Positions 14,626 to 64,000 of a stretch of 64,000 bases of DNA are shown here, in pieces. The translations under genes were made by a program, and so were the position numbers. Origin of the DNA: Pteria penguin. Its lineage: Eukaryota > Mollusca > Bivalvia > Pterioida > Pteriidae. The notes under the pieces are model-generated. The model searched no databases, had not been told where the DNA came from, and worked only from the letters and a program-made list of their open reading frames with translations. Where the stretch lies: assembly GCA_035048485.1 (NCBI GenBank), contig CM068581.1, positions 61,543,393 through 61,607,392 on the forward strand, given 5' to 3'. The stretch's first letter is position 1. Every line of letters starts with the position of its first letter.

Positions 14626-14636
14626 CTAGAAACGAG

Positions 14637-15465: not shown

Positions 15466-16462
15466 TCGAATGCATAATACTTTCTCAAACTCTATTTTAT
15501 AGAAAGCACTTTAAATCGCGATTGAATTAATCGCGAGTTACTGCGCCTTGTCCATGGAAGAAGTCCTATATCACAGCGGTGTCGTGCAAGGTATTAAGCA
15601 AGGCAAATTGACCGCGCTTCTGAAGATATGTTTATTGCGTTGTTCATCAGTAGAGTGCCCAAAATTTGATTTTTGTTTAAGAAATCGAAATCAAAATGCT
15701 TTCTCAAACTCTTGTTTTTATAATTTGTTCATACGACGAATAAAAAATACTTGAAAGTTACGCAAGTAAGATATTTTTATAAAAAAATCTTTAAATTGCT
15801 CACTTTCAAATACCGGGAAACATGTTTCATAGTAAAATCGTTACGGAAAATCGTTTCGTAATGTTTTGGAAACTAAAAGACTAAAAATAAGACAGTTTTG
15901 AACATTACGTAATTTTTAAAAAACTTTAAATTGAAATAGAGGCCAAACTAAAAGAGATAGATAATATCGGCCGATGAAAGTTCTAAAGATATGAACCTAG
16001 AGAACATAACAGTGAAAATTTGAGAGATCTACCATTAAAACTAAAAGCTACATACGCGAAAATCGAAAAATATTAAATCTTACGTAATTCTCTTAAAACG
16101 TCGTATATTTCGAAAAATTTTTTCATTAAACGGGAGTATGTGTCTGTGAGAATGAATAGCCGAAAGATGAAATTTCAAAGTAAAGAGTCGGTAGATACCC
16201 TCATTCCCTATCATGCTACCAATTTTCACATCTCTACCTTCTTTAATAAGCGAGCTTTAGCTGAAACCATTTCATTAAACATTAATGAACTTTATGTGAC
16301 GTTGAAAGCATCACTTTAATGGGGGTTGTCGTGTTTAAACCTAAATAACTCGAAAACGGTAAGAGTTAGCGAAAATTTGATGGCAATGTTATGCATATAA
16401 ATTTTCGCGCAGAATCGATTGCAACAATCCCCGATTCGATAAGATGAAAATTAATGGAGTTA

Positions 16463-17768: not shown

Positions 17769-18727
17769 TTTTCAGGAATTTGGCTCCATGCCAAATTCCT
17801 CTTGTCGGTCGGTAGATATTCTCAATCTCTATCATGCTACCAAATTTCACACCTCTATCTTCCTCAATAAGCGAGCTATAGGCGAAAACATTTCATGAAT
17901 AATTAATGAGTGTTGATGACGTCACAAACATCACTTTAAAGGGGGTTGTCGTGTTCAAACGCAAATAACTCGAGAACCGTAAGAGTTAGCGAAAATCTGA
18001 GAACACTTTACTGGTAGGTATTTGAACGCTCTATTGAATGGAAGAAACCCGATCAAAATCCGACTGCAAATAAAGTCGCTAGACCTTGCCAAAGATTTGA
18101 TTCGAAAATTTTCAATAATTTCAAAAATATTGGCAGCATGCCATTTTCATTCTAGAGGTAGATTAAGAATGTGGAAACATGTTTAGATATAAATTTTCAT
18201 GCCGATATCTCATTTAATAAGAGAGATATTAACGTATGAATATTTAATTAGCTTTGATGACGTCATAGCGAATTTTCCCACGCTCATTGTGACTTTATTT
18301 ATGGTCCGATTTCAAAAATTTTTCATATTCCAAATCAGACCATTAAAATCTTTCATCCTACTGTCTAAAATCTAAGATTGAAATATTTTTTTTGAAATGA
18401 AAACAATCGGGTCAAGGTCAACTTTTTCGGGGTAGAGCTACGAAAATTGACGCAGTGACATAAAAATCTTGCATCTCCTTTTCTGAATCGAATGCTGAAA
18501 ATTTCATTCCAATCGGACAAATAATAAGGAAGATATAGCGATTCAAAATTTTGGCGTCGTAGGTGGCGCTGCGCGCTTATAAGCGGTAATTTAGAAAATT
18601 AAAAAAACCAAATCTTGAAAATTTAATTTCGAATCGAACACTGAAAACAGAATAGTAATATCTTTAATAATGAGTGATTTCTGAGCCGTCACAAAAAAAA
18701 AAAACGGATGAAGAATAATAATAATAA

Positions 18728-24400: not shown

Positions 24401-24920
24401 ATTCAATAAGAGAGATATTAACGTATGAATATTTAATTAGCTTTGATGACGTCATAGCGAATTTTTCCCACGCTCATTGTGACTTTATTTATGGTCCGAT
24501 TTCAAAAATTTTTCATATTCCAAATCAGACCATTAAAATCTTTCATCCTACTGTCTAAAATCTAAGATTGAAATATTTTTTTTGAAATGAAAACAATCGG
24601 GTCAAGGTCAACTTTTTCGGGGTAGAGCTACGAAATTGAGGCAGTGACATAAAATCTTGCATCTCCTTTTCTGAATCGAATGCTGAAAATTTCATTCCAA
24701 TCGGACAAATAATAAGGAAGATATAGCGATTCAAAATTTTGGCGTCGTAGGTGGCGCTGCGCGCTTATAAGCGGTAATTTAGAAAATTAAAAAAATCAAA
24801 TCTTGAAAATTTAATTTCGAATCGAACACTGAAAACAGAATAGTAATATCTTTAATAATGAGTGATTTCTGAGCCGTCACAAAAAAAAAAACGGATGAAG
24901 AATAATAATAATAATAATAA
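21444..24920 (-). mobile_element. family A element, copy A3
   Basis: The first ~830 bp are almost identical to A1, including the same short ORFs. The middle has a longer G run (about 22230-22251). It holds about two and a half ~320-bp units (23338, 23661, 23980) against four and a half in A1, and the same right end with (AAT)n. The near-identity implies recent duplication or gene conversion. Confidence 0.65.
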
Positions 24921-29076: not shown

Positions 29077-29241
29077 CTAGGAAGAACTGTTTACTGGATC
29101 TATATTCATATTTCTTAGTAGGAGTCGAACAGCTTGGTGGCGACTGTAGTAGGTAGGCATAATTGATGGCGTTGCATCTACATCCCCTGATATATATACA
29201 TGATCAATTGTTGTACCATCGTCTGTAGTAGGGATATCAAA
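29077..29241 (-). pseudogene. end of Helentron endonuclease domain, out of frame
   Basis: Reading minus, the sequence after GFEQVV continues as DIPTTDDGTTIDHVYISGD and MPTYYSRHQAVRLLLRNM only if the frame changes by one base at an A run on the plus strand (29239-29241). It is therefore the severed C-terminal end of the endonuclease encoded by the large ORF. The Asp expected before the final catalytic His (S-D-H in this family) is Arg (S-R-H). Confidence 0.8.
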
Positions 29242-32200
29242 CAACTTGTTCAAACCCACGCAGTGTCATGAAGTTTTTCAATGTGTTGTCATTTCCATTT
29301 GCGTTTAGATTAAAATCTCCCAGTACCAAGGTTCCTTTCTTGCCTTTGCCTATTTCAGTAAGTAAGTTTTGGAAGCTGACAAGAAACACTTTCATTGTAT
29401 AGACTGGTGGTCTATATATTACAGAAAGTACATAATTTTTGTCATCATCTGATATCACAATCGCTTCGATGTTTCTACACTCGGTTAGTATCTCACGAAA
29501 CATTTGTCCTTTCCGGATATATATGCCAACACCTCCTCCACGAGAGTTCTTGAGTTTTGTAGTTAATTCGTCGTCACATGTGTATGACTGTATTCTTGTT
29601 CGGTGGAGGAAGTCATAATTTTGCAGATCTAATGCATCTAGTGCTTCGTCGTTATGTAACCATGTTTCAGTGAGGCATATGATGTCAGAGTTGAGAAATC
29701 TTGCATCTGCCTTGAGTTCTGGCATATTGTGTCTAATACTCTGCACATTGAACAAAATTATTTCTTTTGTGACTTGAATGTCGTCTGCCCTTTCTGAGTT
29801 ATCGTGGTACAATTTTGGCATCTTTTCTATGGCTTCCGCTATATCTCCATCAGCGTATATTTTGGACAATAGTGTTTCTATGTTGTTTGTGCTAATGTAC
29901 AATCCGTCTTTCTTGGTAAGTCTACTCAATGAGACATATGCTTGACCAGGACAAAACACATGATCCAAGTTTACTACAACTTCATTTGTTGTCATTCCTT
30001 GAACTTTGTGAGCAGTGCAGGCCCATGCAAGCTTTAGTGGAAACTGGTGTCTAACGATATTTCCTTTTTTCATATCATCTTCGACTCTTTCTATGCGAAC
30101 GATGTTTCCATTTGTAGATTTTATACTTGCTTTTTTACCCACGTTTTCATCGTCAAATTTCACTTCTATGGTATCTATGTCCTCGCTGCTTTTGCCACAA
30201 ATGTTAACTATTGTACCTACAGCCCCGTTTGCTAACCCATCAGCTACGTCAATATTTCTTGTCAGCATCACTCGTGCTTCTCTTGCAAGAAGTAGCTGTG
30301 AAGGAATTATATCTGATCCATTCGTGTTACATGGTGTCTGTAGTGCTTCTAGCTTTCCGCTTGTTTTATCTTTTCTGAAATCCCTTGCTTTAACCTCAAT
30401 TGGATCTTTGCATTGTTTCATGATCATGTCATTGTTGTAGGCATTTACATCCTTATTTCTTGAAAATACATGTAGACATCCCTCCGGCCCTTCTCTGATA
30501 CATTCTTTTAGTATTTCGACTGCATTGTTTGATAAAGACTTGTTTCGTGTACGTGATCTTAGTTCGTTCAATACATTGGCGAATGGTACATCTTCTTTTT
30601 GTCTCATCACTTCATCAAGCTGTACTATTTTGAATAAGTCATTCCAGTAGTCTACAGGGTATGCACCACTTTCATTATAGAGACGTTCGCTTTTAACTTG
30701 TTTCACTGGTGGGAGCTGATAGAAATCACCTACTGCTAGTACACATACTCCTCCAAACGGTTTCTGGATTCGCTTTATTTGGACGAGTCTTTCGTGAATG
30801 TAGTAAAGAAGTCTCTTGTACAACATCGAAACTTCATCTATCACTAGAATTTCTAAGTGTTCAAATTTAGCACGTAAAGGACTCAAGGCTTGTTCTCTCA
30901 GTGGATCATATGGAATGGGCATTGCTCGTTGTATTTTGAAAGCATGATGAATGGTGCAACCACCAATATTGTATGCTGCTGTCCCTGTGAATGCTGTCAA
31001 AAGGATTGTAATATTGTCTGGCTGCGAGATTGTTTTGGCAAGGAGTCTTGTTGATTCATATTCTATTGCTTTTATCAAATGACTTTTCCCTGTTCCAGCA
31101 CCGCCTGTGACAAATATATGGAATGCATCTGGGTTTAATCCTTGAATTTTTTTCAAACACCAGTCCCTCACCACATAAAACGTCTTTCTTTGTAAGGAAT
31201 TGAGGTTTCTTAGTACTTTGAGTATTTCAGATCTATCTGTGGACTTCTGCTCAACATGTACGGAAATATTTGGTACAACATTAATATCAACCATTGGGTC
31301 GTCATATTCTTCCTCTCCTAGCATACTACTCTGTTCTTCTCTGACTGATTTACATTCGTCGTTCATAAGCTCAGATTCAGGACAAAGTGTTGCCCATGCA
31401 TCTTCTTGTGGCCCTAGCATTTCATACATCTCTTCTGCTTGATCAATTGCTGTTTCATTGGATACAAACATTGCACGATTTCTTGCAACAATGTCACTGA
31501 CTTTGTATAGGGTTTTGTCATTCTTAAATTGTACGAATCCATCGGAATAAAATGTTTGATACAATTCAAAATCCTTAGGTTTCAATTGCTTCATGGTCCA
31601 ATATGGCAAAAAAAGTTGCAACATCGACTGGTAATACAATTCAGGACTTATCTTTTCACTGAATCGTGGATAACGAATAATTGCAGGATCTGTATTGGTT
31701 CTTTTCTGAATGTAACCTTTTCCATTCCGCAATTTAAACGTACTGCTGCTTTTCATTGCTGTTTTCACTTGAGATTTTGCCAGAACACGAAAGAGTGAAC
31801 AAAATGCTGCCAAGCATAGCTGCTCAAATTCATCGACGCACGGCCTACATTGATATCTTTCGATTATATTGGTCATCCACAAGTTTTCACCGTCAGTTTC
31901 ATCTTTGTTACGCTTAACATGGTACAAGGGTTTACTAAGGCGTGTTGGATTTTCTCCCACAGGAATAAATATGACATTTCTCGAACATTCTTTCATATGC
32001 AAACTACATATTCTGTAAATGGCTTCTTGTATACCAACTTCCCTATGATGTAAATATGCTGAACCTATTGCTCTCATTGTTTGCTTTGCATTCAAATTTC
32101 CTTGTTCCGATTCGATCTTTGTTTGTCGAAGGAGCATACCCATTTCTCTCTCTGATTTGGAAATGTATGATATGATATACACAATACAACTAAATGGATC

Positions 32201-35182
32201 CAGAACGAATTGTATATCCATGTTAGCATCCCAGCATCGAAGCAGTTGAGCATTATATTGATTAGTCCATGTTTCATCAGGATTTCGTCGTAATATGACT
32301 GTTTGTTTTGTATTCAGTATCTTGTGAGCTTCTTCATAAATTGATTGGTTAATTCCAAGCTTTCTGAATAAGCTTTCTATTGAAATTGTGTTGTCATTTG
32401 TACGATTGATGATATCCCAGACCTTTGTTAACAAGGCTTTAGCATCTGATTTTGTCATAGTGTTCATTGATTCATTTTCTGCATTCATACTAATTTCTTC
32501 TTCAGTGTTTTCTTTACATATAAATGTCTTTCCTGATGGGGGACGTGGAAAGTTAAATCTGCAGTTTGTTCCCTTTTTCTTGCATGATTTTGAATGATTT
32601 CTACTGTGTTGTTGTACACTGTTTACCATATCATAGAGTTCCGGGTCTCTTTCAGCTGAAGGCATAGCACAGGTAATATATTGATCAATAAAATCACAGA
32701 CAGCTGAAGAACCATCTTCATCTAATTTTGGAGCATCACGTATCCAAAATAAGCAGTGAGCATGTGGTGATCCCCTTTGCTGAAATTCTATTCGATAGAA
32801 ATAGTCAGTAACCTCACCAATTGGTTTTTGTGGAGATAAAATCACATCTTTCAGAAAAACATGAAACCTTTTATCAAACATTCTGGCAACGGTTACTGGG
32901 TCACTTTTTAAAAGTTTACTTTTTTCCATCCAGTCAAGATCTTCATACTTCCTACAATCACCTTGTTGTAACAACAAAACATCCAGTATTTCTTTCCATC
33001 GGAATTCAGCAGAAGAAAACGAACAAAACCATGTTGGTATACCAAGTTGTCGAAGCATTGCAAATAAATCCTTTTGTGCTCTCTGCCAATATGATGGTGT
33101 TCCTCTAATTGGTTGTAGAAATCGTAGAGCTTCATCTCTTTTTAGAAGATTTTTCAAGACATTCTCATCTTGTATATTGTCAGTGATATGTCCCTTTGAT
33201 GGGGTTGTTCCTTTTCGTAGCGAGATCTGCGTTTTTTCAATAACTTGCTTTAATTCTGATAGATACTGGCAGTAGAAGATATAGTTTGTGTCCTGTGCAA
33301 ATCTACGGTCAACATTCATTAATCTATTGTTAAAATATCTAAGCATTGGTATACTCACTTTCCTTTTCTCATCAAAAGTATTTATTCCTGACGGAAAATG
33401 CTTAGGAAAACATTTTGCCTCATTACCTACTTCCTGCATGATTTTTACAGGATTGTTTCCTTCACCTGGCGCAATATTGAAAATATCGTCAAAATAATGA
33501 TCAAGCACTTCTTGTCCTATATCTGCTGGCTGAAGACAGGTGTCATATTGTATGCCATTTTCTCCTCCATTTTCTATACTCTTGTCATCTTCTTCATTTT
33601 GCCTTTCGGTTTTGTTCTTTTCTGTATGAATACAATCGGCCAGCAAACTTTGATTGGTTCTTTCATTTTCTATTGTTCGTTTATTCTTTTGTATATCATC
33701 TGCATTTTCTGATATATCATCCAATGTACCATTTTCCTCCAAGCAATCAATTTCAATGTTCCTATACCAAACATTGTTACTTTTTAGGTATTTCAGAGCT
33801 GCCTGAATATGATTTGTATTCACAAATTGATATTCAAAATGTCCTTTGAACTGTAATTTTTTCTTCAGCTTCACTTTAAGTATCAAATTTGTGTTTTCTG
33901 ATCGTGGTAACATTGATATCTTCTGTATGTTTACTGGAACACAAACAACTGGTCCATGTACTGCACTTTGTCCACCTTTTGGCAATGCTACTACTTTCAT
34001 AAAAGGTATGTGTAGTGCTATCAGATGATGTTCCAAACTGTTTAGCACATTCAATTCCTCTGGTACTTCTTCCAATTGCATCATATTGAATGAAGATTCA
34101 GCAGGAATAGAACCATTTACTAATTTTCTGTGACAAGTTTTACATATCCATAATCTGCATTTGGGACAATCACTTAGGCTACATGCTTCGTTATTCTCAT
34201 GTGGTAATTCTTTTGCAAAGAAAACTTTTGTTGAACTACCTTCTTTTGACAGACATTTCTCATAGTTATCTAAATTGCACTTTTGAACTTGATTATCAAA
34301 CAATAACCTCTGACAAGAAGCACATGCATAAACTGGGCCTTTCGACACTTTGTCACGAAATAAAGATGTCATGACATTGTGTGTTTTTGCGTCTTTAGCT
34401 TTCCTGCGAATAGCTGCCTTTTCATTTCGTATTTTGTGAATTTCTGGTGTGCATTTTTTCATAATCCAATATTTTTTTTTCATTTCATCAACTTTCTTGT
34501 TTCTTAGATTCAAATCAATGTGATATTTCTGTCTACATGTTGATTTGTATTTATCACGAAATACTGTGTTGGTCTTGTATCTCATTTTCATTCTTGTTCT
34601 TTGTTGTAAGTCATTTTGGTACCTCATTTTGCTAGCTTCCTTGACCTTTTCTTGATAATTTTTATTCTGCTGATATTTCAATTTATTACTGTTCTTAATA
34701 TTGTTCTTGAATTGTTCATTCTTGTGATACTTCTCTTTACTTGCTCTCCTTACATCACGCCTGAACTGTTCATCTCTATGATATTTTTCTTTACTAGCTT
34801 TTTTCATTTCCTGCTTGAATTGTTCATTTTTTTGGTATTTTACTTTGCTACTATTCATAACTTTCAGCTTGAATTGCTCATTCTTTTGATACCTTTCTTT
34901 GTTGGCTTTCTTCACCCTAAACCTGTATTGTTCATTTTTCTGATACTTTTCTTTAATGCATTCCTTCTTTTCTTGTCTGTATTGTTCATTTTCTCTATAT
35001 TTTCTTTTATTGGCCTCTTTTATTTGTTGGCGAAACGCAATATTGTTTTGATACCTTAGTTTGCTCATTTCTTTTTTATTTATCCTATACTCCTCATCTG
35101 TTGCATACCTTCTTTTCAGACATAAACGTGCCTTCTTTTTGTAATCTGAATCTTTATATTTCTGTTTGCTGATCACAGCCAT
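29237..35182 (-). CDS. Helentron Rep-helicase-endonuclease protein
   Basis: 1,981 codons starting at a true ATG. Residues ~20-235 are lysine-rich ~20-residue repeats (KYQKNEQF type), probably helical and DNA-binding. A Cys/His-rich zinc-binding region lies at ~287-351. The rolling-circle Rep domain has its HUH motif as PHAHC at 806-810 and paired Tyr in YIISYIS at 1002-1008. The PIF1-family helicase has Walker A GGAGTGKS (1360-1367), Walker B LVIDE (1446-1450), GDFYQLPPVK (1485-1494), TAHKVQGMT (1723-1731) and YVSLSRL (1749-1755). An apurinic-type endonuclease begins near 1810, with Glu 1839 in ICLTETWL and GDFNLN at 1955-1960, but is cut short by a frameshift. Rep and helicase look intact. 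It should nick and unwind transposon DNA in the nucleus. It overlaps the OTU ORF by 29 nt in another frame. Confidence 0.93.
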   Translation of the reverse strand: MAVISKQKYKDSDYKKKARLCLKRRYATDEEYRINKKEMSKLRYQNNIAFRQQIKEANKRKYRENEQYRQEKKECIKEKYQKNEQYRFRVKKANKERYQKNEQFKLKVMNSSKVKYQKNEQFKQEMKKASKEKYHRDEQFRRDVRRASKEKYHKNEQFKNNIKNSNKLKYQQNKNYQEKVKEASKMRYQNDLQQRTRMKMRYKTNTVFRDKYKSTCRQKYHIDLNLRNKKVDEMKKKYWIMKKCTPEIHKIRNEKAAIRRKAKDAKTHNVMTSLFRDKVSKGPVYACASCQRLLFDNQVQKCNLDNYEKCLSKEGSSTKVFFAKELPHENNEACSLSDCPKCRLWICKTCHRKLVNGSIPAESSFNMMQLEEVPEELNVLNSLEHHLIALHIPFMKVVALPKGGQSAVHGPVVCVPVNIQKISMLPRSENTNLILKVKLKKKLQFKGHFEYQFVNTNHIQAALKYLKSNNVWYRNIEIDCLEENGTLDDISENADDIQKNKRTIENERTNQSLLADCIHTEKNKTERQNEEDDKSIENGGENGIQYDTCLQPADIGQEVLDHYFDDIFNIAPGEGNNPVKIMQEVGNEAKCFPKHFPSGINTFDEKRKVSIPMLRYFNNRLMNVDRRFAQDTNYIFYCQYLSELKQVIEKTQISLRKGTTPSKGHITDNIQDENVLKNLLKRDEALRFLQPIRGTPSYWQRAQKDLFAMLRQLGIPTWFCSFSSAEFRWKEILDVLLLQQGDCRKYEDLDWMEKSKLLKSDPVTVARMFDKRFHVFLKDVILSPQKPIGEVTDYFYRIEFQQRGSPHAHCLFWIRDAPKLDEDGSSAVCDFIDQYITCAMPSAERDPELYDMVNSVQQHSRNHSKSCKKKGTNCRFNFPRPPSGKTFICKENTEEEISMNAENESMNTMTKSDAKALLTKVWDIINRTNDNTISIESLFRKLGINQSIYEEAHKILNTKQTVILRRNPDETWTNQYNAQLLRCWDANMDIQFVLDPFSCIVYIISYISKSEREMGMLLRQTKIESEQGNLNAKQTMRAIGSAYLHHREVGIQEAIYRICSLHMKECSRNVIFIPVGENPTRLSKPLYHVKRNKDETDGENLWMTNIIERYQCRPCVDEFEQLCLAAFCSLFRVLAKSQVKTAMKSSSTFKLRNGKGYIQKRTNTDPAIIRYPRFSEKISPELYYQSMLQLFLPYWTMKQLKPKDFELYQTFYSDGFVQFKNDKTLYKVSDIVARNRAMFVSNETAIDQAEEMYEMLGPQEDAWATLCPESELMNDECKSVREEQSSMLGEEEYDDPMVDINVVPNISVHVEQKSTDRSEILKVLRNLNSLQRKTFYVVRDWCLKKIQGLNPDAFHIFVTGGAGTGKSHLIKAIEYESTRLLAKTISQPDNITILLTAFTGTAAYNIGGCTIHHAFKIQRAMPIPYDPLREQALSPLRAKFEHLEILVIDEVSMLYKRLLYYIHERLVQIKRIQKPFGGVCVLAVGDFYQLPPVKQVKSERLYNESGAYPVDYWNDLFKIVQLDEVMRQKEDVPFANVLNELRSRTRNKSLSNNAVEILKECIREGPEGCLHVFSRNKDVNAYNNDMIMKQCKDPIEVKARDFRKDKTSGKLEALQTPCNTNGSDIIPSQLLLAREARVMLTRNIDVADGLANGAVGTIVNICGKSSEDIDTIEVKFDDENVGKKASIKSTNGNIVRIERVEDDMKKGNIVRHQFPLKLAWACTAHKVQGMTTNEVVVNLDHVFCPGQAYVSLSRLTKKDGLYISTNNIETLLSKIYADGDIAEAIEKMPKLYHDNSERADDIQVTKEIILFNVQSIRHNMPELKADARFLNSDIICLTETWLHNDEALDALDLQNYDFLHRTRIQSYTCDDELTTKLKNSRGGGVGIYIRKGQMFREILTECRNIEAIVISDDDKNYVLSVIYRPPVYTMKVFLVSFQNLLTEIGKGKKGTLVLGDFNLNANGNDNTLKNFMTLRGFEQVV

Positions 35183-35736
35183 TGCTGTCTGATAAATTGT
35201 GTGTTCCCACCTTTTCAGGTTGATTCTCAGTAATATTTTTCATTGGATGTCTTGTCATTTCAGTTCCAAGAACAACATTGTAATGATTTTCATTAAGATG
35301 GTCTAAGTAGATACTTTGTTCTCCAACAGATATGTTTTTGTTGACAAGTGTTGGGGAGTACTTAAGCCATCTTCCAGCACTATAAATGTAGATATTGCAC
35401 TGCAACAAACATGTTGTACATATAATCTCAAATTCTGTAGCCCATGTATTCAAGTTTGTCATTCCTTCTTCTTGAATATAGGATGTCACTGACTGGTACC
35501 CAGATCTCAAAAACTGTTGGACACTTTTTTGATTGGAGATTGCATACTTGCATATAGCTTCCCTTATTACTTTGTGGGTATCTTCTGAATTACTAATAGC
35601 ATACGAAATTGCTCTGAAAAAACAATTGCCATCTCCTTTTACTTGCTGTACTGTTGTTGGTACGCCTGCAACATTACCACTCGATTCCTTTGGAAAGATC
35701 TTTGTTTTGCTCAATGGTATCTTAATTACTTTGCAT
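35154..35736 (-). CDS. Helentron OTU cysteine-protease-like ORF
   Basis: Contains VKGDGNCFFRAISYAI with the OTU catalytic Asp and Cys (Cys codon 35622-35624), and LNENHYNVVLG with the catalytic His (35283-35285), at normal OTU spacing. OTU proteins cleave ubiquitin linkages; the substrate in transposons is unknown. There is no ATG at the front: the frame is open from a stop upstream, and the preceding ORF ends within it. A seven-T run (35739-35745, A7 on the coding strand) at the junction would allow a one-base slip joining the two. The 3' end overlaps the Rep-helicase ATG by 29 nt. Confidence 0.85.
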
Positions 35737-36477
35737 AATTTTTTTCTGTGTGTTGCCTGTCAGTGGAACAAATTTTATACTCCCTGTATCTGTGCGAGTT
35801 ATAGCAAGATCTTTTTCAGGCTGATCCACATGTTTTTTTATTTTACATCCTGTTATCTCACATTCTACACAAGATGTGATATTCATCGACAAAGAGAGCA
35901 TTTTAATATGATGAAGAACATCAGCTATGTTTTCAATAAGAATGCATGTACTATAACCATTTTCTTGAAGCATACCTTCCTTTGATCTTGAATGTGAATC
36001 AAATATATACAAGGCACTGTTTTGTTTCCCTACCAGCAGTGTATTTCCACCAAAACATACAAAGCAGCAATCCATATCTATCAATGACATTTGTAGAGCC
36101 TCTTCTATTGGAAATGCATTGAAACTTGAATACTGCATTTCTTCTTCAACAATACCTACAACAGATGCAATTGATTCTTTATGTATTATCTCAAAGGTTT
36201 CATTGTATATATCTAACACACGTGGCAGCTCATTAATCAACAAATATGAATAATTCATGGTACTACTTTCTTGCAAGAACCCATATAATTCATTTCCTGT
36301 CATTAGAATTTTATCCATATCTTCTGACTGCCAAATTGACACAGGTTTCAGATGACTGAAAATTGCTGCACACAGGCAGTTTGCTACACACTGGTTACCA
36401 GCATTCTTACCAAAAATTGTATTGCCTTGGTGAAAATTGCCTTGGATAACCTTGCCTTCTGATGGAGAAAACTGTTC
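35722..36477 (-). CDS. Helentron second cysteine-protease-like ORF (C76/herpes-tegument-like fold, tentative)
   Basis: The frame is open from a TAA at 36478-36480 to 35722 and has no convincing ATG start. It reads GNFHQGNTIFGKNAGNQCVA, with a candidate catalytic Cys at 36388-36390, and further on LYIFDSHSRS, with candidate Asp (35998-36000) and His (35992-35994). A G-x-QC block followed by F-D-x-H-S-R is seen in deubiquitinase-like proteins related to the peptidase C76 group and in ORFs of some large eukaryotic transposons. This assignment rests on recall of the motif. The ORF ends IMQSN eight bases before the nominal OTU start, with an A7 slippage site nearby. It was probably once continuous with the OTU ORF. 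Confidence 0.6.
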   Translation of the reverse strand, partial: EQFSPSEGKVIQGNFHQGNTIFGKNAGNQCVANCLCAAIFSHLKPVSIWQSEDMDKILMTGNELYGFLQESSTMNYSYLLINELPRVLDIYNETFEIIHKESIASVVGIVEEEMQYSSFNAFPIEEALQMSLIDMDCCFVCFGGNTLLVGKQNSALYIFDSHSRSKEGMLQENGYSTCILIENIADVLHHIKMLSLSMNITSCVECEITGCKIKKHVDQPEKDLAITRTDTGSIKFVPLTGNTQKKIMQSN

Positions 36478-52076: not shown

Positions 52077-53954
52077 CTAGAGCTTACCCGTTGCCGAGGC
52101 AACAGGGCGGGTCTTCCTCTTTAGAAAAAAAAAAAAAGAAAAATATGTACGTAGAAAGAAGGGAAAAAAAAAAGAAAAAAAGAAACGAGATACTGCAATG
52201 AGTATACGCATTTATTGCGGCATCATAGATATGCCGATTAGGACAAATGAGAAGTATATACATAGATACATGTATATATCTCGCCGAGACACTATGTAAA
52301 CACACTCATGTAATTAAAGCGGCATGATTCCAGCTACGGAAAGTCTGTGTATTACAGAATTCCCATTCAGAAGCGTGGTGACGTAATACGACAAAGCTGG
52401 ATAGAGAGTGTGTATTACGCATTTATTTCAAAGGTCACGTTTAGCTGTACGTATAGCACTGAGATGACTACTATAGTAAGGACATAAAGAAACTCAAATT
52501 TAAGTAAACATACATATTGAGGGATTCCTTTATAATTGCCGATTAGATATTCCACGGGGGCCCAGTAACTCGCGAATGAATTAATAATTAATCGCGAGTT
52601 ACTGCGCTTTTCCCGTCTCTATAGGAACGGCGCTGTGCGAGGTATTAAGCAAGGCAAATTTAACGCGCTCTTCTAATGTGTAATCCCGACGCTCGGAGAA
52701 GATTAGTAGATTGCGTTGTTCATCAGTAGAGTGCAAAAAAATGTTATTTTTGTTTAAGAATTCGAATTCAAATTCTTTCTCAAACTCTCATTTTTATTCT
52801 TTGTTCATACGAAGAATAAGAAGATACACGAAAGTTACGCAAGTAAAATATTTTTTAAAAATCTTTAAATTGGTCACTTTCAAATACTGAGAAACATATT
52901 TCTTACTGAAATGGTTACGGAAAACCCGTTTCGTAATACTCTGGAAACGATCGGACTAAAAATAAAACATTTTTGCAAATTACATAATTATTTAAAAACT
53001 TTAAATTGAAATAGCGGCCAAACTAAAAGAGATAGATATTATCGGCCGATGAAAGTTGTAAAGATATGAACCTAGAAAATATGATAGTTCAAATTTGGAT
53101 AGTGTAGCATTAAAAAATAACGCTGTTAGTGGAGAATTTTAAATTTTATTAATTGTTACGTAATCTTTCAAAAAAACATCGATTTTCAAAATTTTTTTTA
53201 TCTAAACGGGTAACGGTGCCGGTGAAAGTCTGTAATAAAAATATGAAGCGTGTAGATAAAACTGTTTCTCAGAAAATGGAATTGAAAAATCGGGGTGAAA
53301 TTTTGGCGATTTAAGACCCTCTCTCGATAAGGTTTGCAGACGCCAGAGGGAAGGGGGCAAATATTTCGATGGTTTTTAAAAAAAAGTTCAAAAGAGTAAA
53401 CCCTTCTCTAGTGCTGTATTGGTTTTTTGTGATCATACGACGAAAAATAAGCAAGTTATGAAGCAATTACGCAACTAACCAAATTTTTGAAAATCTTAAA
53501 TTTCTCACTTAAAAATAATTTTAAAATATTAAAACAACTTTTTTCAAGCTGAAATTGACATTCTAAATCGTTTTGTTTTCTTTTTGTTACGCTAGGACTT
53601 AAAATAAACGAGTTTGAAAGTTACGTAATGAGTTTAAAAACTTTAAACACAAATAGCGTCTTTATCCTAATAGTTACATAATCGGCGTAAATTCGGTTGT
53701 CAGGACCTATACCTGTACAACATTAACAAGAAAGTTTGAGGAGTCTAGCTTAAATAATAAACGTTTTATTTCAGAAAGTTTAAAAATTAAATATGGCTCT
53801 GTAATTTTCTTTAAAACCGGAATTTTTCAAAACTTTTCTTATAAATCTAGTAAGTTTAAGTTTTGAAACAAAGTAAAAGAGAAAAAAAGATTACTGGTAA
53901 AGCCGTTGCTGAGAAAATTGCAGTCAAAACTCCTGTTTAGAATAAAAAGAATAA
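52077..53954 (-). mobile_element. family B element, copy B2
   Basis: The left end CTAGAGCTTACC leads into a hairpin of CCGTTGCC and GGCAACAGG (one arm mutated, CCCGTTGCC), then GGCGGGTCTTCC. The body carries the module shared with family A (GCGAGTTACTGCGC, TTAAGCAAGGCAAAT, GACGCTCGGAGAAGA). The right end is GCCGTTGCTGAGAAAATTGC, then AATAA, and the next copy. No protein is encoded. Confidence 0.65.
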
Positions 53955-55668
53955 CTAGAGCTTACCTGTTGCCGAGGCAACAGGGCGGGTCTTCCTCTCT
54001 CGAAAGAAAAAAGAAAAATAAGTAGATAGAAAGAAGGAAAGAAAGAAAAAAGATCAGGAGAATGACTTAAATGTACTTTACACACAAAAACCCCCCCCCC
54101 CCCCCAAAAAAAAAAAAAAAAAAAAAAAAAAAACCAAGCAATCAAATTAATTAATAATTGAAATTGAAAAAAGTATTATCTAGAGGAAATAAATCGAAAA
54201 TCAAGTTAAAGAAATCATACCTATTACGGCTCTCCATTATAACAGTCGATTAAACATTCCACGGAAAAAGCGCCGTAACTCTCGATTGAATTAATCACGA
54301 TTGAATTAATCGCGAGTTACTGCGCTTTCCCCGTGACTATCATACACGTTTGAAGTCGGTATTTAGCAAGGGAAATTCACCGCGCTTCTCTTAGATGTAA
54401 TCCCGACGCTCGGACAAGATTTTTTTATTGCCTTGTTCATCAGTAGCGGGTAGAGTGCAAAAAATGTGATTTTTGTTTAAGAATTCGAATTCAAAATACA
54501 TTCTCAAACTCTCCTTTTTATAATTTGTTAATACGACAAATAAGAAAAAACATGAAAGTTACGCAAATAAGATATTTTTTTTTAATCTTCCAAATCACTC
54601 ACTTTCAAATACTTAGAGACATGTTTCATACTAAAATCGGTACGGAAAATCGTTTGGTGATGTTCTGGAAACGATAAGACTAAAAATAAAATGTTTTTGC
54701 AAATTACGTAATTATTTAAAAACTTTAAATTGAAATAGCGGCCAAACTAAAAGAGATAGATATTATCGGCCGATGAATTTTGTAAAGATATGAACCTAGA
54801 GAATATGATAGTTTAAATTTGGATAGTGTAGCATTAAAAATAAGTTATATAGTAGAGAATTTAAAATTTCATTAATTGTTACGTAATGGTTTTAAAAACT
54901 TTCATTTTTAAACTTATTTTTTACTTAAACGGGTAACAGTGCCTGTGAAAATTTATAGACACAATATGAAGTGTGTAGATAAATCCGTTTTTCTGAAAAT
55001 GGAATTGAAGAATCGGGGTGAAATTTCGGCGTTTTAAGACCCTCTCTCGATAGGGTTGTCCGACGATAGAGGGAAGGGGGCTAATATTTCGATGTTTTTG
55101 AAAATATAATTCAAAAGCACTAACCCTTCTCCGTCGCTGATTGAATTTTGGTGATCATATGATAAAAACTAAGAAAGTTACGAAGCAATTACGTAACTAA
55201 CCAAATTTGTGAAAAACTTAAATTTCTCAATTAAAAATGCATTTCAAATATTAAAAGAAACTTTTTTACCATGAAATTGACATTCTAAATCGTTTTGTAC
55301 CATTTTTAAAAAGCTTAGTTCAAAAACAACGAAGTTTAAAAATTACGTAATTTTAAAATTTAAATAATGGCTTAACCGTTAAATGTAGATAATCGGCGTT
55401 GATTCCATTCTCAAAATTACACCTGTCAAATTTAAGAATGAAAAGTTGAGGAATCTATCTTAAATAATAAACTTGTTTTTGAGAAAATAAAAAAATTAAC
55501 CCTATTACGTAATTTCCTTTAAAACCATAACAGTTTAATATTTTTTTCTTATCAATCAATTTCCCCTGGCTCATCAAGCCAGTAGCCGCGATAAAAAGAT
55601 TGTTGGTTAAGCCGTTTTTGAGAAAATGGCAGTCAAAGTGCTGAGAAAAAGAATAATAATAATAATAA
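53955..55668 (-). mobile_element. family B element, copy B3
   Basis: Left end CTAGAGCTTACC with a perfect 9-bp hairpin (CCTGTTGCC, loop GA, GGCAACAGG). The body is like B2, with a C/A homopolymer tract near 54090-54133. It ends GAAAAAGAATAATAATAATAA, followed by two hairpin modules and not directly by the next element. Confidence 0.65.
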
Positions 55669-55800
55669 CAAATGTAAAGAAAAAACATCACAATAACAGA
55701 AGGGTCTTCCGATGGAATCGGAAGACCCTAATAAAAACAAATGTAAAGAAAAAACATCACAATAACAAATGGGTCTTCCGATGGAATCGGAAGACCCAAA
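55669..55800. repeat. two tandem palindrome modules, B type
   Basis: Two ~69-bp units (AAATGTAAAGAAAAAACATC, ACAATAACA) each end in a perfect palindrome with a 12-bp arm GGGTCTTCCGAT, loop GGA and the complementary arm, at 55702-55728 and 55771-55797. One more base pairs outside each. GGGTCTTCC is also the sequence just inside the terminal hairpin of family B. The second unit abuts the CTAG of B4. Confidence 0.9.
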
Positions 55801-57793
55801 CTAGAGCTTACCTGTTGCCGAGGCAACAGGGCGGGTCTTCCTCTCTCGAAAGAAAAAAGAAAAATAAGTAGATAGAAAGAAAGAAAGAAAGAAAAAGGAT
55901 CAGGAGAATGACTTAAATGTACTTTACACACAAAAATAACCTCCCCCCCCCCCCCCAAAAAAAAAAAAAAACCCTCAAGCAATCAAATTAATTAATAATT
56001 AAAATTGAAAAAAGTATTATCTAGAGGAAATAAATCGAAAATCAAGTTAAAGAAATCATACATATTACGGCTCTCCATTATAACAGTCGATTAAATATTC
56101 CACGGACAAAGCGCCGTAACTCTCGATTGAATTAATCGCGATTGAATTAATCGCGAGTTACTGCGCTTTCCCCGTCACTATCATACACGTTTGAAGTCGG
56201 TATTTAGCAAGGGAAATTCACCGCGCTTCCCTTAGATGTAATCCCGACGCTCGGACAAGATTTTTTTATTGCCTTGTTCATCAGTAGCGGGTAGAGGGCA
56301 AAAAATGTGATTTTTGTTTAGAATTCGAATTCAAAATACATTCTCAAACTCTCCTTTTTATACTTTGTTAATACGAAAAATAAGAAAAAACATGAAAGTT
56401 ACGCAAATAAGGTATTTTTTTTAAAAATCCTTTAAATCGCTCACTTTCAAATACTGAGAAACATGTTTCATACTGAAATCGGTACGGAAAATCGTTTGGT
56501 GAAGTTCTGGAAACGATAAGACTAAAAATAAAATGTTTTTGCAAATTACGTAATTATTTAAAAACTTTAAATTGAAATAGCGGCCAAACTAAAAAAGATA
56601 GATATTATCGGCCGATGAATTTTTTAAAGATATGAACCTAGAGAATATGACAAAAAAAATTTGAATACTCTAGCATTTAAAATAACGCTGTATGGTGGAG
56701 AATTTAAAATTTAACTCATTGTTATGTAATGTTTTTGAAAACTTTTATTTTTGAAATTTTTTTTTCTTAAACGGGTAACAATGTCTCTGAGAGTCTATAA
56801 CTATAGTATAAAATTTGTACATAAATCCGTTTGTCAGAAAATGGAATTGAAATATCGGGATGAAATTTCGGCGATTTAACACCCTCTCTCGATAAGGTTT
56901 GCAGACGCTACAGGGAAGGAGGCAAATATTTCAAAATTTTTAAAAGCATAATTCAAAAGAGCAAGCCTTTCTCCAGTGCTGATTCAAAATTTGGTGGTCA
57001 TACGACGAAAAATAAGCAAGTTATGAAGTAATTACGTAACTAACCAAATTTTAGAAAAACTTAAATTTCTCAGTAAAAAATGGATTTAAAATATTAAAAA
57101 CACCCTCTTACACGCTGAAATTGACATTCTAAATCGTTTTGTAATATTATTTTAACGCTAAGACCTAAAATAAAAAAGTTTGAAAGTTACATAATGAGTT
57201 TAAAAACTTTAAACACAAATAGCGTCTTTACCGTAATAGTTACATAATCGGAGTTAAGCTGGTTGTCAAGATCTACACCTGTACAATATTAAATAGAACA
57301 TTTGAGGAATCTAGCTCAAGTAATAAACATTTTATTTGAGAAAATTTAAAACCTACTTAAAAATGAATTTAAAATTTTAAAACTCATTTTATACAGTTAG
57401 ATCGATACTTTGAATCGTTTGATACTGTTTTTGCATTTCTAAGTCTTAAAATAAAGAAAGTTTAAAAATTATGTAATAGCCTTAAATATTTAAACTCAAA
57501 TAGCGTCATTGCCATTATAGGTATTTAATCAGATTTAATTCTATTGTCAAGATTTACACCTGTGCATGATTGCTAAGAAGAATTGAGGAGTTTGACTTGA
57601 ATAATGAACGTTATATTTGAGGAACTTTAAAAATTGAAGTTGGTTACGTCATTTTATTTAAAACATGATTTTTTCAAAATTTTTCTTATAAATCTACTAA
57701 GTTTACCTTTAAAAGTAAGTAGCATAGAGAGAAAATGTTGCCCGTGAAGCCGTTGCTGAGAAAATTGCAGTCAAAAATCCTATTTAGAATAAG

Positions 57794-57812
<19 letters not shown>
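55801..57812 (-). mobile_element. family B element, copy B4
   Basis: Same left end as B3, including the perfect 9-bp hairpin and a C-run tract (about 55942-55956). It is extended on the right by an extra partial duplication of the body (57340-57700 resembles 57040-57340). It ends in (AAT)n and is followed by five palindrome modules. Confidence 0.65.
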
Positions 57813-57824
<12 letters not shown>

Positions 57825-58123
57825 GTAAAGAAAAAACCTCACAATAACAAATGGGTCTTCCGATGGAATCGGAAGACCCAAACAAATGTAAAGAAAAAAC
57901 ATCACAATAACAAATGGGTCTTCCGATGGAATCGGAAGACCCAAATAAGAAAAGACAGTAGAATAATAAAAGGTTTCACAAGTGAAACTTGTGAAACCTA
58001 ATAATAAATAAGAAAAGACAGTAGAATAATAAAAGGTTTCACAAGTGAAACTTGTGAAACCTAATAATAAGAAAAGACAGTAGAATAATAAAAGGTTTCA
58101 CAAGTGAAACTTGTGAAACCTAA
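57813..58123. repeat. five tandem palindrome modules: two B type, three A type
   Basis: Two B-type palindromes lie at 57853-57879 and 57916-57942. Three A-type palindromes have a 13-bp arm AGGTTTCACAAGT, loop GAA and the perfect complement, at 57971-57999, 58034-58062 and 58093-58121. The A-type units carry the leader AAGAAAAGACAGTAGAATAA, with periods of 63 and 59 bp. AGGTTTCACAAGT is identical to the sequence just inside the terminal hairpin of family A, whose copy A4 starts at 58124. Confidence 0.92.
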
Positions 58124-61100
58124 CTAGAAACGAGCTCGTTGCTAAAGCAACGAGTAGGTTTCACAAGTTAAAGTCGAAGCAGCGAAGCTGGGATCTCCTA
58201 CTCTAATACACAATTCTTTTGCACGATCCAGATATCTGATCTTTAGTGATGGTATCCACATTGCGCAATCTACTGGCAGAAATTGTAAGTAACAGCGATT
58301 TACATTATATACATTGCACTGAAGCCTACATCGCACAATATCGACTACTCTTGACCATATATTTGAAACAAGAAACATGTAGGACAGTCACACTTAGTAC
58401 AATCTGCACGTGTAACCTAGATCTCCAGTCCTTACTGCCCGCTTTATGTTGTTTATTTATTAACTTACGCAAGGTATTTCGCGTGTACAGATGTTTGACC
58501 TTGAATCGCCACTCTGCTGGAATAAACAATTCTCCTCGTGATGGCCGTTAATAATGCCGCTTTCCGCAATATACAAAACAAAGACTTGACAATGTCTCGT
58601 ATTCCACAGGTAAGCACTGTAACTCGCGATTAAATCACACACGTTTGAAGTCCTGTATAACAGCGGCTTGACCATATATTTGAAACAAGAAACATGTAGG
58701 ACAGTCACACTTAGTACAATCTGCACGTGTAACCTAGATCTCCAGTCCTTACACCCCGCTTTATGTTGTTTATTTGTTAACTGGCGATTAATTCACACAC
58801 GTTTTTTTTTTTTTTGGGGGGGGGGGAGGGGTTGGTTTTTTTATTTTTTGGTTTTTTTTTTTGTTTAAGAATTCGAATGCATAATACTTTCTCAAACTCT
58901 ATTTTATAGAAAGCACTTTAAATCGCGATTGAATTAATCGCGAGTTACTGCGCCTTGTCCATGGAAGAAGTCCTATATCACAGCGGTGTCGTGCAAGGTA
59001 TTAAGCAAGGCAAATTGACCGCGCTTCTGAAGATATGTTTATTGCGTTGTTCATCAGTAGAGTGCCCAAAATTTGATTTTTGTTTAAGAAATCGAAATCA
59101 AAATGCTTTCTCAAATTCTTGTTTTTATAATTTGTTCATACGACGAATAAAAAATACTTGAAAGTTACGCAAGTAAGATATTTTTATAAAAAAATCTTTA
59201 AATTGCTCACTTTCAAATACCGGGAAACATGTTTCATAGTAAAATCGTTACGGAAAATCGTTTCGTAATGTTTTGGAAACTAAAAGACTAAAAATAAGAC
59301 AGTTTTGAACATTACGTAATTTTTAAAAAACTTTAAATTGAAATAGAGGCCAAACTAAAAGAGATAGATAATATCGGCCGATGAAAGTTCTAAAGCTATG
59401 AACCTAGAGAACATAACAGTGAAAATTTGAGAGATCTACCATTAAAACTAAAAGCTACATACGCGAAAATCGAAAAATATTAAATCTTACGTAATTCTCT
59501 TAAAACGTCGTATATTTCGAAAAATTTTTTCATTAAACGGGAGTATGTGTCTGTGAGAATGAATAGCCGAAAGATGAAATTTCAAAGTAAAGAGTCGGTA
59601 GATACCCTCATTCCCTATCATGCTACCAATTTTCACATCTCTACCTTCTTTAATAAGCGAGCTTTAGCTGAAACCATTTCATTAAACATTAATGAACTTT
59701 ATGTGACGTTGAAAGCATCACTTTAAAGGGGGTTGTCGTGTTTAAACCTAAATAACTCGAAAACGGTAAGAGTTAGCGAAAATTTGATGGCAATGTTATG
59801 CATATAAATTTTCGCGCAGAATCGATTGCAACAATCCCCGATTCGATAAGATGAAAATTAATGGAGTTATGACGTCATTTACAAAGTATGACGTCATTTT
59901 CAGGAATTTGGTACCATGCCAATTCCCTTTTGTCAGTCGGTAGATATTTGCATTCTCTTTTATGCTACCAAATTTCATACCTCTAGCTTTATCAATAAGC
60001 GAGACACAGGTACCTGAAGTTTTAAATTGTATTTTCAGGAAAGGCCAAACACTGAACTTTGACCGCAAATATCTCGAAAACGGTAAGAGATATCGAAAAT
60101 CTGAGACCAGACCTTTTTCCTTTAACTACTTTTTCACGCAGAATCGATTGCAACAATCCCCGATTCGATACGATGAAAAATAAGGGAGTTATGACGTCAT
60201 TTAGAAAAGTATGACGTCATTTTCAGGAATTTGGCACCTTGCCAATTCCCTTTTGTCAGTCGGTAGATATTTGCATTCTCTTTTATGCTACCAAATTTCA
60301 TACCTCTAGCTTTATCAATAAGCGAGACACAGGTACCTGAAGTTTTAAATTGTATTTTCAGGAAAGGCCAAACACTGAACTTTGACCGCAAATATCTCGA
60401 AAACGGTAAGAGATATCGAAATTCTGTTGCTGGTATTTACCATTTTACTTTTTCACGCAGAATCGATTCCAACCGTCCCCGCCTCGATCCGATGAAAAAT
60501 AAGGGAGATATGACGTCATTTACAAAGTATGACGTCATTTTCAGGAATTTGGCTCCATGCCAAATTCCTCTTGTCAGTCGGTAGATATTCTCAATCTCTA
60601 TCATGCTACCAAATTTCACACCTCTATCTTCCTCAATAAGCGAGCTATAGGCGAAAACATTTCATGAATAATTAATGAGTGTTGATGACGTCACAAACAT
60701 CACTTTAAAGGGGGTTGTCGTGTTCAAACGCAAATAACTCGAGAACCGTAAGAGTTAGCGAAAATCTGAGAACACTTTACTGGTAGGTATTTGAACGCTC
60801 TATCGAATGGAAGAAACCCGATCAAAATCCGACTGCAAATAAAGTCGCTAGACCTTGCCAAAGATTTGATTCGAAAATTTTCAATAATTTCAAAAATATT
60901 GGCAGCATGCCATTTTCATTCTAGAGGTAGATTAAGAATGTGGAAACATGTTTAGATATAAAATTTCATGCCGATATCTCATTTAATAAGAGAGATATTA
61001 ACGTATGAATATTTAATTAGCTTTGATGACGTCATAGCGAATTTTCCCACGCTCATTGTGACTTTATTTATGGTCCGATTTCAAAAATTTTTCATATTCC

Positions 61101-61499
61101 AAATCAGACCATTAAAATCTTTCATCCTACTGTCTAAAATCTAAGATTGAAATATTTTTTTTGAAATGAAAACAATCGGGTCAAGGTCAACTTTTTCGGG
61201 GTAGAGCTACGAAATTGACGCAGTGACATAAAATCTTGCATCTCCTTTTCTGAATCGAATGCTGAAAATTTCATTCCAATCGGACAAATAATAAGGAAGA
61301 TATAGCGATTCAAAATTTTGGCGTCGTAGGTGGCGCTGCGCGCTTATAAGCGGTAATTTAGAAAATTAAAAAAATCAAATCTTGAAAATTTAATTTCGAA
61401 TCGAACACTGAAAACAGAATAGTAATATCTTTAATAATGAGTGATTTCTGAGCGGTCACAAAAAAAAAAACGGATGAATAATAATAATAATAATAATAA
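58124..61499 (-). mobile_element. family A element, copy A4
   Basis: The left end and hairpin are as in A1. Near 58600-58800 a second partial copy of 58340-58460 is inserted (TTGACCATATATTTGAAAC recurs at 58670), followed by the T/G tract. The body from 58860 is nearly identical to A3, with about two and a half ~320-bp units (59917, 60240, 60559). It ends CGGATGAATAATAAT and is joined to A5. Confidence 0.65.
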
Positions 61500-64000
61500 C
61501 TAGAGACGAGCTCGTTGCTAAAGCAACGAGAAGGTTTCACAAGCTAAAGTTAAAGCAGTGAGATTAAACAAGAGTTTTGTAGCGGAACTTGAATTTAATA
61601 CTGGAAGCAAAGAGCTTTAAAGCTAAATATTAAGAGAGAAAAAACAGAAAGGAGTCAGTATCAAAACCGCTGAAGTTTACGTTTAGGGTCGAAACCAACG
61701 CAGATCAGGAGTAAAAATAAGTAATAATAGGGATGTGTGTGCGGATGCGCTTGTGGGCGGGGAGGGGTGGAGATGGTTTGAAACGTTTCCATCGGATGAC
61801 GGAGTGCCCTTAAAGTGGTAAGTTGTGACGGGTACAAAAGTGTAGGCTTTGGCAAGGTTCTATATTAAGAGTGTACTTGTTCATTATGTCCTGTATTGAA
61901 ATTCCGCTTTATTTATTTTTTAGAGTTTTTTTCCCTCAATCTATATTTTCTCAATTTAAATATAAATAAAAAGGAACAAAGAATAAGCAATAATTACTAA
62001 CGGCATGGAAACTTGGGCAAGGCGGGGTAGAAACATGAGTATGTTTCGAACCACGAGGGATCTGGAAGCTGTGCAGGTTCCAAGCGGATCAAGGACAGCG
62101 TCTTGACACGGGTATCAGGGAGGCGGAGGATAAAGCGTCCCCTTCTCAAAGGAAAAATATTCTAAAACGTTTAAATCATAAAAATTTTGCAACAAAACAA
62201 AAGCAGGATTCTGTATAATTATATATGCAATCTAGAATAATATACAACTAACCTATTCTTTCTCTGACGGCATATGTGAGAGCTCGGAAGGGGTATAGAT
62301 TAAATTATGCAAGAGGCTTGACTTGCCCAACTTTCAGTTTGTTTGAAAGGTAGACTATTTTAGAAAGCCTAGTCTGATATTTCGCTTTTTGTCACTGTAT
62401 TCTTTTAGACTTGCTAAGTTTCTCTATTTTATTTCAGTAATTGTCACGCATGAAAGAGAGAGGGGTTGAATTTAAAGGGAGTAAGAGGAATATTGCTCAA
62501 AATCTCTAAAGATATTTTGTATTGAATGAAATGAAACAAAAATATATTAATAATAACAACAGAAGTATATGAGCAAATCTTGATTCCTTTTAACCTCTAC
62601 GGTTTCGCGGTATTAAAAGTATTAGGAAAGAGCAATGGATATGGAATAATTATCAACGAAAACATATCATGGAGACTAGAGCAAATCTAGCTGGGATCGT
62701 GAGTATTTACAAAGACACGAGGGGTTGGGAGCCCCGCAGAATAACATATCATGGGGACTTGCGTAAATGTAGCTGGGGTCGTGAGTATTTACCAAAAGAC
62801 GAGGGATTCGGAGCCGCACAGGTTCCCAGTGGGGTCTTGGCGCTGCGCAGGTTCCCCGCGAATCTATCATCATCTATTGTCATATCGTACTTGTTGTTAG
62901 AATTTTTTGGTACGGAAATTAGAAAATTCTGTTCTCTAATACAAAGACCGAATCTCGTTCAGGTGCTGACATAGGTAAGAGGAATAATAATAATCTTCAA
63001 CTCCCCCAACCCTCTCAAACATTACATCAGCCTATATATCTACGTTATTCAATGACCGCTTAAATGATTTATATTTGTTAACCATTGTTTTCAAAACGGG
63101 GGAATAATTTATGTATTTTTCTCATCACACTTTAAACATTGAATACTGCGAGTGTATCGTGTCTGTTGTTAAATCCGAGTAAGCCCTGTATATGATGGCA
63201 AAACCCTAACTACTCCACAAACTTGGCCTTAGATAACTCCTGTTAGAATTAACAATTCCGTGGATCGCGATTTCTCGCAGAGCTATTACACCAGGTGGTA
63301 TAACATATCAGCTGGCCATACAGCCGCGAGTAGAAAGAATCAAGAGTTGTCGCTCTTTGTCTTGTCCGCTTATCAAAACAGTTAGTGACATTATTTATAT
63401 TCCGATTGCTCATGCCAAATTCCATTTGTCAGTCGGTAGATACCCTCATTCCCTATCATGCTACCAATTTTCACATCTCTACCTTCTTTAATAAGCGAGC
63501 TTTAGCTGAAACCATTTCATTAAACATTAATGAACTTTATGTGACGTTGAAAGCATCACTTTAAAGGGGGTTGTCGTGTTTAAACCTAAATAACTCGAAA
63601 ACGGTAAGAGTTAGCGAAAATTTGATGGCAATGTTATGCATATAAATTTTCGCGCAGAATCGATTGCAACAATCCCCGATTCGATAAGATGAAAATTAAT
63701 GGAGTTATGACGTCATTTACAAAGTATGACGTCATTTTCAGGAATTTGGTACCATGCCATTCCCTTTTGTCAGTCGGTAGATATTTGCATTCTCTTTTAT
63801 GCTACCAAATTTCATACCTCTAGCTTTATCAATAAGCGAGACACAGGTACCTGAAGTTTTAAATTGTATTTTCAGGAAAGGCCAAACACTGAACTTTGAC
63901 CGCAAATATCTCGAAAACGGTAAGAGATATCGAAAATCTGAGACCAGACTTTTCTCCTTTAACTACTTTTTCACGCAGAATCGATTGCAACAATCCCCGA
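61500..64000 (-). mobile_element. family A element, copy A5, diverged and cut by the window end
   Basis: CTAGAGACGAGCTCGTTGCT has the same hairpin, followed by AAGGTTTCACAAGCTAAAG. Some 1.5 kb of sequence not seen elsewhere in the window follows. From 63066 the sequence matches A2 from about 19188 (TTTATATTTGTTAACC) and then the common body with TGACGTCA pairs. Within the unique part, ACATATCATGG..GAGTATTTAC is duplicated with an 82-bp shift (62663 and 62745). The 62669-62974 ORF has no recognisable domain. Confidence 0.55.

Follow-up and report, generated by a model that had tools for sequence, protein, structure and literature searches.

The seven palindromic modules located between positions 55669 and 58123 of the window, the 64,000-nucleotide stretch of Pteria penguin DNA analysed here, are very probably the 5' termini of Helentron/Helitron2 elements that were stranded from their bodies by nested insertion into a (TTA)n microsatellite. 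The 5' ends would be separated from their bodies because later copies inserted into the microsatellite just behind each 5' end. This explanation is based on the observed anatomy of the elements, the typed pairing of their ends, near 1:1 counts of both ends in the genome, the conservation of microsatellite length and one empty site.

According to the proposed model, a module is the 5' terminus of a single Helentron or HINE and would comprise a 13-bp inverted repeat, a 3-nt loop, the complement of the repeat and a leader of ~27-33 nt. The leader would run into a (TTA)n microsatellite, which measures ~22 nt in intact A copies, followed by the body. A new copy would insert at TT, often within the (TTA)n of an older copy, so that the older 5' module comes to lie upstream of the inserted copy and the older body beyond the new CTAG, downstream of it. 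With repeated insertion, k consecutive modules on the 5' side would face k consecutive bodies on the 3' side, arranged in the opposite order as in a set of brackets.

The presence of seven perfect palindromes at this place, as reported by the first-pass annotation, was confirmed, with type A at 57971-58121 and type B at 55702-57942. All seven have arms of 13 bp once the outer pair is counted. This outer pair is T...A in three B modules versus A...T in the B module at 55728, indicating that both sides changed together and the pairing was kept. Eight first-order Markov sequences of 64 kb contained no palindromes with an arm of at least 12, a loop of at most 6 and a GC content of at least 0.2, and the single-stranded DNA folds of one A module and one B module had z-scores of -8.10 and -7.85. 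The three A modules of the window are identical to each other (56/56). The earlier claim that the arms copy the sequence just inside the terminal hairpins holds in part. The A arm matches this sequence in 13/13 letters at three of the five window A ends (14658, 21476, 58156) and differs by one letter at the ends 18728 and 61500, while the B arm shares nine letters (GGGTCTTCC), not its whole length, with the sub-terminal sequence of all four window B ends.

The 3' ends of families A and B on the minus strand are composed of an ATIR, a hairpin and CTAG, in this order, which bears out the previous suggestion of a Helitron-type 3' terminus. They are located at 14626, 18728, 21444, 58124 and 61500 for A and at 24921, 52077, 53955 and 55801 for B, and TT directly follows all nine. 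The 3' inverted repeat has a length of 13 bp in A and 9 bp in B and lies 32 nt from the CTAG end, and the hairpin of both families has a 9-bp stem 10-11 nt from the element end. Two B copies, B4 (57880-55801) and B3 (55729-53955), are complete with palindrome, leader, (TTA)n, body, ATIR, hairpin and CTAG; no intact A element was found within the window. The bodies of A1, A2, A3, B1 and B2 start in a T/A-rich (TTA)n-like stretch right behind the CTAG of another element, and no palindrome was found at any of these starts. The palindromes outside the complete copies are exactly five modules, as many as there are bodies without a palindrome. The following features were assigned:

58066 to 58121, minus strand: 5' end of A1, palindrome 58093-58121 plus leader, assigned by 56/56 identity and bracket pairing to the body and 3' end at 14626-18727
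58007 to 58062, minus strand: 5' end of A2, assigned by module identity and bracket pairing to the body at 18728-21443
57944 to 57999, minus strand: 5' end of A3, assigned by module identity and bracket pairing to the body at 21444-24920
57883 to 57943, minus strand: 5' end of B1, assigned by bracket pairing to the body at 24921-52076, which contains a Helentron transposase ORF
55738 to 55798, minus strand: 5' end of B2, assigned by bracket pairing to the body at 52077-53954
55801 to 57880, minus strand: complete element B4, module 57820-57880, inner insertion absent, 2079 nt from arm to CTAG
53955 to 55729, minus strand: complete element B3, module 55669-55729 with outer pair A...T, (TTA)n, body and 3' end
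52077 to 53954, minus strand: body and 3' end of B2, CTAG at 52077, then TT and the start of the B1 body
24921 to 52076, minus strand: body and 3' end of B1, probably an autonomous Helentron, 3' end at 24921, ORF at 29237-35182
29237 to 35182, minus strand: Helentron Rep/helicase/endonuclease ORF, 1981 aa, with the Pfam domains Helitron_like_N, PIF1 and Exo_endo_phos
21444 to 24920, minus strand: body and 3' end of A3, assigned by its 3' end and bracket pairing
18728 to 21443, minus strand: body and 3' end of A2, assigned by its 3' end and bracket pairing
14626 to 18727, minus strand: body and 3' end of A1, outermost of the nest, followed by host-like (TTA)n
58124 to 61499, minus strand: body and 3' end of A4, whose 5' end lies beyond the window
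61500 to 64000, minus strand: body of A5, cut by the window end, with the nearest A 5' ends at window-equivalent 65361-65809

The A bodies also contain tandem repeats of 319-323 bp (16402-17875, 19711-20594, 23229-24064 and 59750-60644), which resemble the satellite-like repeats of HINEs. Long minisatellites are present outside the nest at 4928-6189 (60 bp x 21) and 10006-11124 (44 bp x 25).

Read on the minus strand from 58121, with capitals for 5' ends and small letters for 3' ends, the order of the ends is A A A B B b B B b b b a a a. All seven modules close with a 3' end of their own family and none is left over. The module at 57942 (B1) is paired with the 3' end at 24921, and the 3' end of A1 lies 43 kb away from its 5' end. 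The bodies are found on the modules' other side, directly behind the module for B3 and B4 and further away for the other five. After in-silico excision of the inner elements, each 5' region consists of module, leader, (TTA)n and body. Full typed pairing occurred in 960 of 400,000 shuffles of all 16 tokens and in 35 of 4410 shuffles of the family labels with the open/close pattern kept. An independent typed nest at C1:38751000 has the order A A P, P body, p, A body, a, A body, a. Here, P is a sister subfamily of A that has the palindrome in common with it and differs in leader, body and 3' hairpin.

Further loci were examined in the 838 Mb host assembly containing the window, in which repeat counts are lower bounds. 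The A palindromes number 1640, and fifteen loci (L014-L028), most of them singletons and three doubles, were chosen by hand from the 100 that head the list. Nine of the eleven loci with one module (L016-L018, L020-L025) run into a matching 3' end 1.2-4.4 kb downstream. The module of L024 is located directly behind a B 3' end, and several other single loci lie in host (TTA)n. In the other two, L015 and L019, the fetched stretch contains the module and no 3' end. In L019, a perfect A palindrome around 6134 lies in (TTA)n with neither a leader nor a recognisable body, and could be a lone palindrome or a remnant. Among the four loci with several modules, L028 has equal numbers of modules and 3' ends (2:2). 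In L014 and L026, two 3' ends precede the beginning of a third body. L027 carries two modules but a single body, and host (TTA)n flanks this unit on either side.

These loci bear directly on the first-pass annotation, which had suggested that the modules, lying at a neighbour's 3' end, could be miniature elements, snap-back products formed once termination is bypassed, or terminators that are spare or new. Modules can indeed directly follow a CTAG (58124/58121 and 55801/55797), and their second arm equals the 3' inverted repeat. However, the one-module loci bear the module 5' of a body, several of them with unique host sequence before the module, and the pairing collapses when the listed ends are read in the opposite direction, in which the number of unpaired tokens rises from 28 to 116 for A and from 34 to 122 for B. 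The adjacency of module and CTAG arises because insertion takes place at a TT before an existing 5' end. The modules are instead the 5' ends of the elements that follow on the minus strand, and the earlier interpretation is almost certainly wrong. Its variants were also rejected individually. Termination-bypass arrays are expected to have a 5' end at every unit, and five of the seven nest bodies have none behind the preceding CTAG. De novo snap-back does not fit the leader and microsatellite behind the palindrome, which are identical in single elements with unique flanks. For miniature elements, no module standing alone was found in the fetched loci, except possibly in L019.

The genome-wide association of the palindromes with A and B ends, which the first-pass annotation had proposed to check, was found for both families. 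With exact 29-letter patterns, 544+823=1367 A 5' ends and 549+815=1364 A 3' ends were counted. For B, 183+383=566 palindromes (27 letters) compare with 181+352=533 3' ends (29 letters). The palindrome count is the fair comparison here since the B leader varies, with 74 copies of one variant and 149 of another. The bare A palindrome, common to A and P, has 660+980=1640 copies. Backward-read control patterns gave no matches for any pattern. Exact patterns overlook mutated ends, and two of the four window B 3' ends were missed in this way.

Pairing was also evaluated in the position lists, using 98 of 100 listed 5' ends and 78 of 100 listed 3' ends for A (C1+C2; rows on C3 were dropped due to unequal list ends) and 92 of 100 listed palindromes and 84 of 100 listed 3' ends for B (rows on C3 beyond 34.5 Mb were dropped, again due to unequal list ends). 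A gap of 60 kb (A) or 120 kb (B) marked the border between clusters, and tokens were shuffled within clusters in 2000 rounds by a simple scheme that does not keep runs together. Among the listed A ends on C1+C2, 98 modules and 78 3' ends formed 74 pairs, and 28 tokens remained unpaired (24/98 modules and 4/78 3' ends), whereas the 2000 shuffles averaged 60 and never gave fewer than 36. Among the listed B ends on C1+C2+C3 up to ~34.5 Mb, 92 modules and 84 3' ends formed 71 pairs, leaving 34 unpaired tokens (21/92 and 13/84) versus a mean of 72.5 and a minimum of 48 in 2000 shuffles. Balanced clusters made up 11 of 20 for A (C1+C2, listed ends) and 22 of 40 for B, the latter including 18 single pairs and one cluster of the form OOOOcccOOccOcc. 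Some of the unpaired tokens are ends missed by the exact patterns.

The insertion sites and microsatellites provide a further line of evidence. In the flanks of 11 loci, TT is present on the 3' side in 11/11 and on the 5' side in 10/11 cases. The search for empty sites suggested earlier yielded one, in L017, where the element lies in a tandem host repeat whose neighbouring units differ by a few point changes and lack both element and TT. Compared with these, the occupied unit has gained both the element and TT. The (TTA)n tract that separates leader from body measures 20-24 nt in the intact A elements of the fetched regions (n=12, mean 21.7). In interrupted A tracts, 5-12 nt are left on the module side (n=17, mean 9.0; six of these pieces come from one run of eight modules, and the mean is 8.7 without these and L027) and the body side retains 11-20 nt (n=8, mean 14.4). 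The halves paired by the brackets add up to 22 (A1), 23 (A2) and 25 nt (A3) in the window, 25 and 25 nt for two pairs right of the window, and 25, 22 and 19 nt in the C1:3875 cluster. Seven of these eight sums lie within the 22-26 nt expected from the intact length plus TT, and one is too short (19 nt).

The balance within the window alone was dropped as proof of nesting, as the extended cluster holds seven surplus A modules. This cluster contains 17 A modules versus 10 A 3' ends, with seven modules left open, six of them in one run of eight, and no further A 3' end was found in the 34.6 kb left of A1. The ratio of 17:10 counts against a pure nesting model. In the run of eight (window-equivalent 65361-65809), two modules carry a point change in one arm, and only two bodies adjoin.

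One explanation would be that module runs stem mainly from local tandem duplication of the 60-bp 5' end by slippage or unequal exchange, independent of nesting. The run of eight beside two bodies and the two modules with one body in L027 are in line with this. The same applies to C1:83697814-83702246, where the position list has three runs of A palindromes (4, 4 and 5) spaced ~2.1 kb apart, probably as a result of local tandem duplication. However, in both mixed runs (A A A B B and A A P) the last module matches the next body and the bodies follow in reverse order, the genome-wide numbers of 5' and 3' ends are nearly equal in A and close in B, and the split microsatellite halves add up to one intact tract in seven of eight cases. 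As the main source of the runs, tandem duplication is therefore improbable.

Alternatively, the excess modules could result from composite transposition, in which replication runs from an outer 5' end to the first 3' end and several 5' ends move with one 3' end as a unit. Body loss by recombination between near-identical copies would look alike, and is favoured by A bodies that are up to 99.4% identical and in direct orientation. The two-module, one-body unit of L027, flanked by host microsatellite on both sides, would fit composite movement, but it is a single isolated case among the 15 loci, and the genome totals leave little room for many such units unless they are offset by copies without a 5' end. 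This reading concerns the exceptions only and is compatible with nesting; it is a possible, though somewhat doubtful, source of the excess. Nested insertion remains the preferred explanation for the array in the window.

The B1 body contains the 1981-aa transposase ORF, which was detected in a Pfam scan of five ORFs of the window, and B1 is probably an autonomous Helentron. Among the 120 of 704 similar proteins listed, the highest identity to this ORF was 61%, and the best named match, with 59% identity, was to proteins of Pinctada imbricata. The named relatives in this list belong almost entirely to Pinctada, Saccostrea, Crassostrea/Magallana and Ostrea, with one fish. Just upstream of the Helentron ORF, at 35154-36342 on the minus strand, an ORF for an OTU protease was observed, together with a weak match to Herpes_teg_N that falls below the Pfam cut-off. 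In many bivalve relatives, the OTU and Herpes_teg_N domains are fused to the transposase in the same protein. Viral contigs contained no matches for either palindrome and no confirmed relative of the transposase. Judging from its domains, rolling-circle transposition by the encoded Rep/helicase/endonuclease would perform the insertions.

The first-pass annotation knew of no described element of this form, but palindromic 5' ends have been described for Helitron2 and Helentrons in the accessible text of Bao & Jurka 2013 (PMC3627910) and Thomas et al. 2014 (PMC4067079). In the available portion of the former, two features define Helitron2. One is a 5' ATIR that forms a 5' hairpin and lies 0-2 bp from the 5' end, and the other is a 3' ATIR that lies ~20-30 bp from the 3' end and precedes a hairpin. 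Compensatory changes keep the hairpin, and pairing of the 5' and 3' ATIRs is proposed to end replication. As far as this text goes, the elements described here share the 5' ATIR as a 5' hairpin and a compensatory change keeping it, and differ in their perfect 13-bp arms, a 3' ATIR 32 nt from the end and deep self-nesting. By analogy, the palindrome may work as the 5' hairpin proposed for Helitron2, in which the 5' and 3' repeats pair when replication ends. According to the accessible part of Thomas et al. 2014 (PMC4067079), Helentrons have subTIRs that are palindromic, contain microsatellites and OTU genes, and use T-rich targets, with two or more T at each end. On this basis, the likeness to Helentrons, HINEs and DINE-1 includes the endonuclease-bearing Rep/helicase, palindromic subTIRs, the 3' stem loop, the OTU ORF, a T-rich target (two or more T per side), the microsatellite and tandem repeats in the body.

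Similarities also exist to systems in other organisms, to the extent that the available text of their reports allows a comparison. The HINE of the bivalve Crassostrea gigas, Cg_HINE (PMC7492417), resembles the present elements by description in its 5' subTIR with a complementary inverted repeat, microsatellite, satellite-like repeats and 3' subTIR with a palindrome, but has mostly 4-nt microsatellites. In FoHeli1/2 of Fusarium (PMC5148889), an inverted repeat likewise forms a 5' hairpin with a 3-nt loop, but these elements are fungal and have other termini and another target. The elements of the window have the features of Helitron2/Helentrons, namely a Rep/helicase with a C-terminal endonuclease (in B1), a 5' hairpin, a 3' inverted repeat upstream of the hairpin and insertion at TT without a longer target duplication. 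Canonical Helitron1 elements start with 5'-TC and have no 5' hairpin, whereas the present elements start with AGG or T/AGGG, carry a 5' hairpin and insert at TT; their CTAG end does fit the CTRR of Helitron1. Given the known descriptions of Helitron2, Helentrons and HINEs, the modules are ordinary, and their components have been described before (Bao & Jurka 2013; Thomas et al. 2014). Helentrons nested in their own 5' microsatellite as bracket arrays were not found described in the accessible portions of the literature searched, in which subscription journals are sparsely covered.

In a raw count of the listed ends on C1+C2, 53 of 98 A 5' ends follow another A 5' end at a distance of at most 130 nt, and a further 21 follow an A 3' end at no more than 200 nt. 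Tentatively, the (TTA)n may be a landing pad carried by the element that draws new copies into old ones, spares host DNA and keeps a bracket record of the insertion order, with nested 5' ends sometimes moving together as composites with several 5' ends. A plain preference for TT/(TTA)n, together with local hopping and later duplication, could also account for these distances.

The accessible text of Thomas et al. 2014 (PMC4067079) gives termination bypass as the supposed origin of Helitron tandem arrays, and also notes neighbouring Helitron insertions. The arrays described here very likely consist of nested insertions into the 5' microsatellite instead. Nesting offers an alternative to termination bypass for Helitron tandem arrays that is backed by counts, and it turns a puzzling array into a readable insertion history. 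It also carries a warning for genome annotation: Helentron 5' ends can be tens of kilobases away from their bodies, which makes copies appear 5'-truncated and modules resemble satellites.
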